From assembly GCA_027013575.1 (NCBI GenBank), contig JALWGN010000058.1, forward strand, positions 1 through 33,880: a DNA stretch of 33,880 nucleotides, given 5' to 3'. The position numbers and the translations under genes are program-made. The stretch comes from Desulfurobacteriaceae bacterium. Lineage in GTDB: Bacteria > Aquificota > Aquificia > Desulfurobacteriales > Desulfurobacteriaceae. Shown here in pieces: positions 1 to 20,020 of this stretch; the first letter of the stretch is position 1; every line of letters begins with the position of its first letter. A model generated the notes under the pieces. That model was not told the DNA's origin. It ran no database searches and worked only from the letters and a program-made list of their open reading frames with translations.

Positions 1-603
1 AGAGCCTTAAACTACGGCATCTTAGAAGACCTAATAGAAACTGCAAAAGGCATCTTCCAAGAACTCACAGAGGAAAAGCTCAAACAAGCCTTTGGATTTA
101 CCCAACCTAAGGTTCGTGAGTTTATGGCTTGGGTGAGGAAAATCCTACAAAGTGGCTGGAAACCTAAAGGGGAGCTTAAAAATATCGGCTGGATAGACAA
201 AGAAATAAGAGAGCTTGTTGAAAAATTAACAGGCTTTAGGATTAAAAATCCAGTAATAGCCGTCAACGACAAAGGAATTCTGCACATGATAAGGAATGCC
301 AAAGAGAAGAGAGGAGCAACTATTCCTTTAAAGGAGCTTTATAGGATTCCGAAAACAATAGCTTCTCCTGAAGTTATCCTCCTTGATACAGGAGATAAAT
401 CGGGGAAGCCTGTGCTACTCTTCGTAAAAAGCGTTCCGGGTAAGAAAGCAAAGTTCGTTGTTAAGTTGGAGACACCTACAAAAGTAAAAATTGAAGGTAA
501 AAAGAAGAAGATACTCCTAAATCTTCTTAAAACTTCTGGACTTGTTGATATAACGAATCTTCGGGAAAGGAGATATAAACTTCTAAAGGGAAAAATTCAG
601 TAA
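1..603 (+). CDS. phage-type protein, C-terminal part (possible head-morphogenesis-linked PBECR nuclease domain); 5' end outside window
   Basis: The reading frame is open from the first base, so the gene begins upstream; the ATG at 124 is internal. About 200 residues are visible. The first ~70 are helical and charged. The last ~125 (from about GILHMIRNAKEK to the end) look like a small alpha/beta domain: an LHMIRNA segment, then IPLKELYRIPKTIASPEVILLD and strands around LLFVKSVPG and FVVKLETP. This pattern resembles the barnase/EndoU/colicin/RelE-fold (PBECR) domains often fused to the C-terminus of phage head-morphogenesis proteins; that is family knowledge recalled from memory. Base and codon use (AAA, ATA, CTA) is more AT-rich than the genes to the right, which fits foreign origin. 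A structured element starts at its stop codon. The phage assignment is moderate and the nuclease assignment weaker; it could be another accessory phage protein. Confidence 0.5.
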   Translation, partial: RALNYGILEDLIETAKGIFQELTEEKLKQAFGFTQPKVREFMAWVRKILQSGWKPKGELKNIGWIDKEIRELVEKLTGFRIKNPVIAVNDKGILHMIRNAKEKRGATIPLKELYRIPKTIASPEVILLDTGDKSGKPVLLFVKSVPGKKAKFVVKLETPTKVKIEGKKKKILLNLLKTSGLVDITNLRERRYKLLKGKIQ

Positions 604-705
604 GGCGGTGGTGGGAGGACGCCCACCCCCTCCATAGAACGAATCCTCCACTCAGGAGGACCCGCCCAGCCAGCCAGGGCGACTTTCTGGCTTTCACCAC
701 CGCCT
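603..705 (+). ncRNA. candidate structured RNA: four-way junction closed by an 11-bp stem
   Basis: A perfect closing stem pairs 603-613 (AGGCGGTGGTG) with 695-705. Inside it are three hairpins: 614-618 with 629-633 (GGAGG/CCTCC); 644-649 with 655-660 (TCCTCC/GGAGGA, loop ACTCA); and 672-677 with 687-692 (AGCCAG/CTGGCT, 9-nt loop). CGCCC at 620-624, in the first loop, is complementary to GGGCG at 677-681 around the third hairpin, which would allow a pseudoknot. The element is about two-thirds G+C inside AT-rich DNA and begins at the stop codon of the phage-type gene. No U-run follows the closing stem, so it is not a plain terminator. I do not recognise it as a named family. Alternatives are a processed 3' UTR, a phage regulatory RNA, or the folded end of a transposon. 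The pairing is seen in the sequence; function is unknown. Confidence 0.5.
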
Positions 706-18803: not shown

Positions 18804-20020
18804 ATTTAGGAACTAGCTCTGTAAGAGTTTCTCTATCCCTTCAAAAAGGTGATAAGTACCACTTTTACATAAAGACTGCCCCTTCCAGGGGAGTGAAGAA
18901 CGGAAACATAGTGAACCTTGCTTCAGCCAAGGAGTCGCTCAGGTCGGCCCTTAACAGCTTAAAGCTTGAGTCTCCTGTGGCTCTACCGAACGAAGCCTAC
19001 GTTTTAGTTCCAGGTGGCTGTACCCTCGGTTACCAGGTGGAGGCCACGATAGAGTTCCCAGGGATCAAAACCATATCACACAACGACGTTAACGTCGTAA
19101 AGAACAAGGCAAAAGACGAACTGCTGAGAATAAAGGGTCAGACCGTTAAGAGTTACTACGAGGTTATCCACGTCGTTCCCCAGGAGTTCATAGTTGACAG
19201 CGTGGACGGTATTCAGAACCCGATAGGCAGGAGCGGGAGAAAGCTGACGATGAAGGCCTTTATCGTTCTTGCCTCCCGTTCCCACGTAAAGACCCTGGAA
19301 GATCTCTTAAAGGAACTCAACCTTAAGCTTAAAGGTGTTGTTCTTCAGTCTTTTGCCTCCTCCTTCGGTATAAGGTCTCAAAACTCCTACTTTAACAACA
19401 ACCTCCTCCTCTACATGGGAGCTGGAAATACTGAGTTCATGTACTTCAGGGAGGATAAGCCGGTTCTATCAAAGCACCTGCCCTTTGGTAGCGAAGACAT
19501 TATGGAGTTTCTTATTAAAAAACTGAAGGTTAGCAGAACTGAGGCAGAGAGGCTTTACAGGGAGCACGGTAGCGCTTACGCCTTCAACGTAAGCAAAGAG
19601 GAGGTGATCCACATAAACTACGGAAGTAAGACACTTAAGGCCCCCAAAATCCTCATCCCTGCACTGATTCACCTGAAACTTAAAGAGGTCTTTAAGGACA
19701 TCAAATCTCTGCTCAGTGAGGAGAACCCCGACTACCTTGAAAACCTCAGCGGAGTTTACCTGACCGGAGGACTTTCAAAGCTGAAGGATATAGACACGCT
19801 AGCTGAGAAGATCTTTAAAGCTCCTGTTACCGTTCCGCCTCTTTCTCACCCTGAAGTATCAGACGTTGCTCTTTCTCCTCTTGTGGGAGTTACCGACTAC
19901 ATCGTCTCCCTCTCTGATAGGAAGAAACTGTCAGACATTAGGGAGGACCTCACAAGGTCTTACGAGAGAGGGGGAGGATTCTTTGCCTCCGTCTGGAGGT
20001 TCATAACCGATATAATCTAG
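18776..20020 (+). CDS. ftsA: cell division protein FtsA
   Basis: This 414-residue actin-fold ATPase tethers FtsZ to the membrane. ILTLDLGTSSVRVSLS is the phosphate-1 loop (about residues 5-20). A 1C-domain segment follows (about 85-165) with the conserved QEFIVDSVDGIQNPIGRSG, then LLYMGAGNTEFMYF (phosphate 2) and GVYLTGGLSKLKDIDTLAEKIF (adenosine motif). The C-terminus FFASVWRFITDII is an amphipathic membrane-targeting helix separated by a glycine-rich linker. ATG at 18776 lies within ftsQ. It is followed by a strong GGAGGTAAAAG site for ftsZ. Confidence 0.95.
   Translation: MLSQKILTLDLGTSSVRVSLSLQKGDKYHFYIKTAPSRGVKNGNIVNLASAKESLRSALNSLKLESPVALPNEAYVLVPGGCTLGYQVEATIEFPGIKTISHNDVNVVKNKAKDELLRIKGQTVKSYYEVIHVVPQEFIVDSVDGIQNPIGRSGRKLTMKAFIVLASRSHVKTLEDLLKELNLKLKGVVLQSFASSFGIRSQNSYFNNNLLLYMGAGNTEFMYFREDKPVLSKHLPFGSEDIMEFLIKKLKVSRTEAERLYREHGSAYAFNVSKEEVIHINYGSKTLKAPKILIPALIHLKLKEVFKDIKSLLSEENPDYLENLSGVYLTGGLSKLKDIDTLAEKIFKAPVTVPPLSHPEVSDVALSPLVGVTDYIVSLSDRKKLSDIREDLTRSYERGGGFFASVWRFITDII

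Follow-up and report, generated by a model that had tools for sequence, protein, structure and literature searches.

Structured RNAs and Toxins of Phages

In type III toxin−antitoxin systems of the ToxI/ToxN kind, the gene of a small folded RNA, at times in tandem copies, adjoins that of a nuclease-like protein, and phage phi29 produces a small RNA, the pRNA, that has complementary hairpin loops. GOLLD and ROOL are phage-encoded structured RNAs without known function that form kissing loops (PMC12286853). A toxin family has also been described in temperate phages, that of the MuF proteins, whose C-termini are often nucleases. An immunity gene of small size is usually located directly downstream of the toxin; for many proteobacterial MuF extensions, the toxin status was left open (PMC5576092).

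The window, i.e., the whole stretch of 33,880 nt analyzed here from a Desulfurobacteriaceae bacterium, encodes an RNA that belongs to a real, conserved structured family without a match in Rfam, and that shares some features with each of these systems. Like the RNA antitoxins of type III systems, it is a small folded RNA gene, sometimes in tandem, adjacent to a nuclease-like gene (the nuclease-like domain, PBECR3, scores under the cut-off in some members), a resemblance that concerns only how such systems work. Unlike ToxI/ToxN, there is no pseudoknot repeat array feeding a toxin, the candidate partner is a phage head protein, and the gene order is convergent. With the immunity genes that accompany MuF polymorphic toxins, which encode proteins, it shares the position directly behind muF and the occurrence of orphan copies, but it is an RNA on the opposite strand instead of a small open reading frame (PMC5576092). 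GOLLD and ROOL are several times larger, and the RNA described here differs from them in its lack of an Rfam match, its layout, and its phage type (PMC12286853). Finally, the likeness to the phi29 pRNA stops at small size and complementary loops, as the phage type is different, the junction is four-way rather than three-way, and no Rfam match was obtained.

Fold and Conservation of the RNA

The RNA is a four-way junction with kissing side loops that spans positions 603−705 on the minus strand and is best read from 705 to 603. The closing stem P1 pairs 695−705 (the 5′ arm on this strand) with 603−613 (the 3′ arm) and encloses three hairpins: P4 (668−692, with 668−673 paired to 687−692), the variable arm P3 (639−665, at least 11 pairs on the minus strand, broken by A·C mismatches on the plus strand), and P2 (614−633, with 614−618 paired to 629−633). 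The loop of P2 carries 620−624 (CGCCC) and that of P4 carries 677−681 (GGGCG), and the pairing between these two halves is kept across homologues. The 11-bp closing stem, the three hairpins, and the pseudoknot had been proposed in an earlier note on this DNA, and all are present in the fold of the window. The element has a G+C content of 0.66 and occurs as a single copy in its genome. Its plus strand folds with a minimum free energy (MFE) of −50.5 kcal/mol (z −5.2), a value that was equaled by 0 of 200 shuffles, and its minus strand folds better still (−64.7, z −5.7).

The layout recalls a tRNA, with a closing stem, a 2-nt joint, three arms, and a loop−loop contact. tRNA mimicry was nevertheless rejected because ARAGORN and the Rfam tRNA model were negative and no T-loop sequence was seen, which leaves a resemblance of shape only. 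More generally, membership in an Rfam family was defined by a covariance-model score that equals or exceeds the gathering score of that family, and none of the Rfam 15 families, including tRNA, pRNA, GOLLD, ROOL, riboswitches, and ribozymes, reached it at the element in the window or its relatives. These searches agree with the earlier note, which could not match the RNA to a known class. DNA similarity searches of phage, plasmid, and E. coli collections with the window and with the L081 and L120 elements returned nothing meaningful.

Homologues were obtained in several ways. A DNA search located the element in six further Desulfurobacteriaceae genomes, while three Hydrogenothermaceae genomes have a MuF homologue (36−38% identity) and, behind it, an RNA that has the same layout despite a very different sequence. 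The covariance model R1 then matched further copies in the same phylum, namely two in genome G103 and a second copy in G092, and two RNAs, one per loop type, lie in tandem on the IMG/VR contig L081. The occurrence of the RNA is patchy (7/22 and 4/41 genomes).

As expected for a structured RNA family, the helices covary among these homologues beyond the controls. Every helix does so: both sides change in 24 of the 33 pairs, 93% of the cells are paired, and in P1 alone 9 of the 11 pairs are altered on both sides; the kissing pair is kept, with one full compensation from C-G to G-C. An alignment of 15 sequences has 24/38 pairs altered on both sides. Of its cells, 94.0% are paired when the plus strand is read and 96.3% when the minus strand is, and its covariation scores, 0.506 and 0.548, exceed those of slid controls (at most 0.152). 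When the contigs L120 and L122 are added, the resulting alignment of 17 sequences, which was fitted to the model, has 93.4% paired cells, and 138 double-change cells, where shuffles have 47; its score is 0.616, and slid controls reach at most 0.185. The kissing pair of L120 and of Pseudomonas phage B3, CGCCA with UGGCG, provides a further compensatory state. Because P3 was hand-aligned with its pairing as a guide, the count for this arm leans toward structure; the counts for P1, P2, P4, and the kissing pair depend much less on hand alignment.

This covariation also bears on the possibility that the locus acts as DNA, i.e., as a cruciform, a transposon end, or a MITE, with no role for an RNA. 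A perfect 11-bp inverted repeat near the end of a transposable phage would suit such an element, but the paired bases change together across 17 sequences, the loop−loop pairing compensates, and there is one copy in the window genome and a copy in the middle of the B3 genome, all of which makes a DNA-level element very improbable. A transposon end or MITE, in particular, was rejected because of the single genomic copy, the end repeats of the Mu-like phage that lie beyond the RNA, and the mid-genome copy of B3. The earlier note had regarded either this identity or a lack of covariation among homologues as reason to abandon a structured RNA, and neither was found; its suggestion of a new structured phage RNA is borne out both by the covarying stems and by a conserved place beside a phage gene.

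Strand and Putative Promoter

The minus strand is very probably the RNA strand. The earlier note had read the plus strand, and this is probably wrong, as the MFE of the minus strand is the lower one in each of the 15 sequences of the model and also in B3 (−50.5 versus −32.7). Furthermore, 19 plus-strand A·C mismatch cells of the Aquificota set become G·U on the minus strand, against 3 plus-strand G·U cells, although this wobble evidence is mixed, and the cells are not independent and correspond to roughly six events versus two. L120 and L122 fold better on the plus strand, so that the folding evidence on the strand is mixed.

On the minus strand, a site that resembles a promoter (TTTGCA-18-TATCAT or TTGCAG-17-TATCAT) is located at 713−742, its −10 box lying 7 nt before the 5′ end of the RNA, and it is conserved in G017, G008, and G018. 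The site of the window clade has 9/12 matches (p 0.02−0.08 per sequence, the sequences not being independent), and that of L120, also on the minus strand, has 10/12 (p 0.002). Similar sites were recognized by eye in L122 (TTGAAA-17-GATAAT) and B3 (CTGCCA-17-TATAGT), and the site is weak in the Hydrogenothermaceae copies. Very probably, the element is thus a gene for a small RNA that is encoded opposite to muF and transcribed from a promoter of its own. The remark in the earlier note that the element lacks a U-tract holds for the plus strand and not for the minus strand, where UUUUU follows P1 within a few bases in several copies, the window included. A scan found no standard intrinsic terminator; the UUUUU is near the end of P1, but this stem encloses about 80 nt.

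The abutting convergent layout, with a promoter-like site facing muF, is what would be expected if minus-strand transcription interfered with the end of the muF mRNA, a late transcript, or yielded an antisense to it, and so silenced it in the lysogen. Such a regulatory RNA would not need an elaborate covarying fold or a kissing pair, however, and the orphan copies and the G103 copy adjoin other genes, so that this explanation is unlikely. Cis action on the upstream mRNA, which had also been suggested, is unsupported. Two other roles suggested in the earlier note, in packaging and in anti-defense, are possible.

MuF Neighbor and Prophage Context

Positions 1−603 on the plus strand comprise the 3′ portion of a gene for a MuF-like minor head protein with a PBECR3 domain, cut by the start of the contig and convergent with the RNA; the phage-type gene of the earlier note is therefore the C-terminus of a MuF-like protein. 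Full-length relatives also bear a Mu F domain. The PBECR3 match is above the curated cut-off for the MuF C-termini of the window and of the IMG/VR relative (IMGVR) and under it for G105, L081, and L120, while for the MuF C-terminus of the G103 phage no relation to PBECR3 was found by hhalign, Pfam, or NCBIfam.

Downstream, five TTTCTCANNTTTTTCTT repeats (one inverted) occupy 761−926 on the plus strand and are probable transposase-binding sites of a phage right end, and the sequence common to the relatives stops near 930, beyond which the flank differs from genome to genome. Because of these repeats, of this shared end, and of a Mu-like IMG/VR relative, the window is read as opening with the final 930 bases of a prophage of the Mu-like kind and continuing into the host chromosome, so that the RNA lies within the phage, about 225 bases from its right end. 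The relative, 39 kb long, encodes a Mu-type transposase, an AAA/TniB ATPase, a Mu portal, sheath, tube, and terminase.

Further copies were reached independently of the RNA, as IMG/VR contigs were picked by terminase similarity alone and then scanned with the minus-strand model R3. Two contigs with terminases only 26−31% identical to the query gave matches, L120 (E = 2.6e-8) and L122 (E = 1e-4), E-values of covariance models being rough. In L120 the RNA comes directly after the MuF stop codon and in L122 about 126 bases after it; in both, the next gene was read by eye as a DNA methylase. A protein search with the MuF C-terminus of L120 led to Pseudomonas phage B3, where R3 matches the minus strand of the record at 18968−19059 (E = 4.5e-7), beginning at the MuF stop codon. 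Only two B3 records in the phage collection carry the DNA of this RNA, and the RNA was not found in PM105 or in a Pasteurella phage, both with related MuF genes or C-termini. In B3, muF and the RNA are located in the middle of the genome, which indicates that the RNA is linked to MuF and not to the phage end. An annotated hypothetical gene of 33 codons, B3ORF34 (L124 2415−2513, B3 record 18980−19078), overlaps the RNA and may be a mis-annotation.

Overall, MuF is directly behind the 3′ side of the RNA at 11 loci (window, G017, G008, G009, IMGVR, G105, G092, G091, L081, L120, and B3), and L122, with its gap, is the twelfth. Five copies are without MuF (G013, G092b, G103a, G103b, and the second copy of L081), G022 has a decayed RNA that keeps the last few MuF codons, and the contig of G018 starts inside the RNA. 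Solo copies, from which the rest of the phage is gone, are located at L030 7628−7730, L034 128−223, L070 14478−14575, and L073 10669−10766; that of G013 is nearly intact, those of G022 and G092b are decaying, and such copies are possibly orphan antidotes or simple relics.

The G103b copy closes a different transposable phage, the last gene of which is Rz1-like, and it nearly equals the RNA of the other Hydrogenothermaceae phages despite differing phage proteins. Across two phage types that differ from each other, the type of RNA thus goes with the family of the host. This, together with the patchy distribution and the copies that persist without a phage, would agree with an accessory gene of lysogens, a trans-acting small RNA that targets a host factor in superinfection exclusion, counter-defense, or host regulation. 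The host target was not found, however, and the place behind MuF, kept across phyla and mid-genome in B3, would be left unexplained; we regard this alternative as rather unlikely. Both G103 copies and their phage-end repeats adjoin tRNA genes (tRNA-Trp and tRNA-Ser; L070 14478−14983 and L072 14751−15118), unlike the other phage type.

Two transposable phages have large terminases (L072 5225−6781 and L052 14189−15721) that are 64% identical, while their other shared proteins reach at most 39%, and the terminase is best read as exchanged between phage types. It is also the most similar protein of two otherwise different phages that bear the RNA, as might be expected of a virion or packaging RNA that binds to MuF or terminase while the DNA is packaged and that works like the phi29 RNA. 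The complementary hairpin loops covary, and two new copies were reached via terminase similarity, as such a role would suggest. On the other hand, G105 and G103 have near-identical RNA types and terminases that are 38% identical, so that the RNA type does not track the terminase; furthermore, orphan copies persist without a phage, and PM105 does without the RNA. A role in packaging is accordingly quite unlikely. Terminase relatives without the RNA were dropped as counter-evidence because their contigs end before the right end.

Prophages at CRISPR Loci

A separate observation is that the Mu-like prophages sit unusually often in or at CRISPR-cas loci. Those of G009 and IMGVR are inside CRISPR arrays, and those of G105, G092, and G091 interrupt, at three different positions, the 3′ portion of a gene that was identified by eye as cas1; the orphan RNAs of G013 and G092 are at CRISPR arrays, and the prophages of G017, G008, and G018 are away from CRISPR-cas loci. 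The right ends in arrays or putative cas1, near cas2-like genes and arrays, are at L055 ~7010−7590, L026 1−620, L028 1−500, L043 10930−11570, L007 232−365, and L004 1−1440. Just past the right end in the window, at 956−1053, two decayed CRISPR-like repeats about 67 bases apart resemble GTTTTATCTGAACGTAGTGGGATATAAAG (the Rfam DR43 match is sub-threshold, E = 1.2).

The RNA is often near CRISPR arrays because the prophages sit there, and an RNA-guided or CRISPR-linked function was rejected because this proximity follows from the prophage sites and no spacer matched these phages (none of the spacers of the sampled arrays does so convincingly). Phage DMS3 offers a precedent, as CRISPR loss occurs via transposition of a Mu-like prophage under self-targeting (PMC11406979). 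Because of this precedent, selection for CRISPR loss is a simpler reading than targeted insertion, although either could explain the sites.

A Candidate RNA Antidote

Because the RNA occupies the position of an immunity gene behind muF, the function that we favor, with a probability of about 30%, is that of an immunity factor, or antidote, against the nuclease-like C-terminus of MuF. MuF, which bears this domain, presumably accompanies the phage DNA into the next cell. The kissing of the two side loops would hold the folded RNA rigid, and the RNA would bind and block the MuF C-terminal domain in the producing cell or lysogen, as the antitoxin RNAs of type III systems do. The copies that lack MuF would, on this view, be orphan immunity genes. 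In an extended form, which we consider doubtful, the RNA would represent a new class of immunity that relies on RNA and not on protein, guarding the producer from a nuclease injected within a minor head protein, and that is traded between phages and kept by the host as an orphan antidote.

In favor of the antidote are the copies that are orphaned (G013, G092b, G103a, and G103b) or doubled (the tandem of L081), a pattern known from immunity systems, and the recovery of the RNA beside MuF in phages that were fetched without using the RNA. The covariation of all helices and of the kissing pair, the PBECR3 matches of the window and IMGVR, and an RNA type that goes with the host family even in a phage of another kind also speak for it. 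Against it, the G103 phage bears the RNA and has a MuF C-terminus without a detectable relation to PBECR3, the domain scores under the cut-off in G105, L081, and L120, and PM105 and the Pasteurella phage lack the RNA although their MuF C-termini are related. In addition, many proteobacterial MuF extensions are not known to be toxins (PMC5576092), and L120 and L122 fold better on the plus strand.

Thus, a well-supported structured RNA family is added to the Mu-like phages, one that is common to phages of deep-branching thermophiles and to Pseudomonas phage B3. Its presence in B3, a phage that can be propagated in a standard laboratory strain, makes both the transcript and its role open to direct test. 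If the RNA is indeed an antidote to MuF, this would change the view of how toxin-bearing phage head proteins are restrained.
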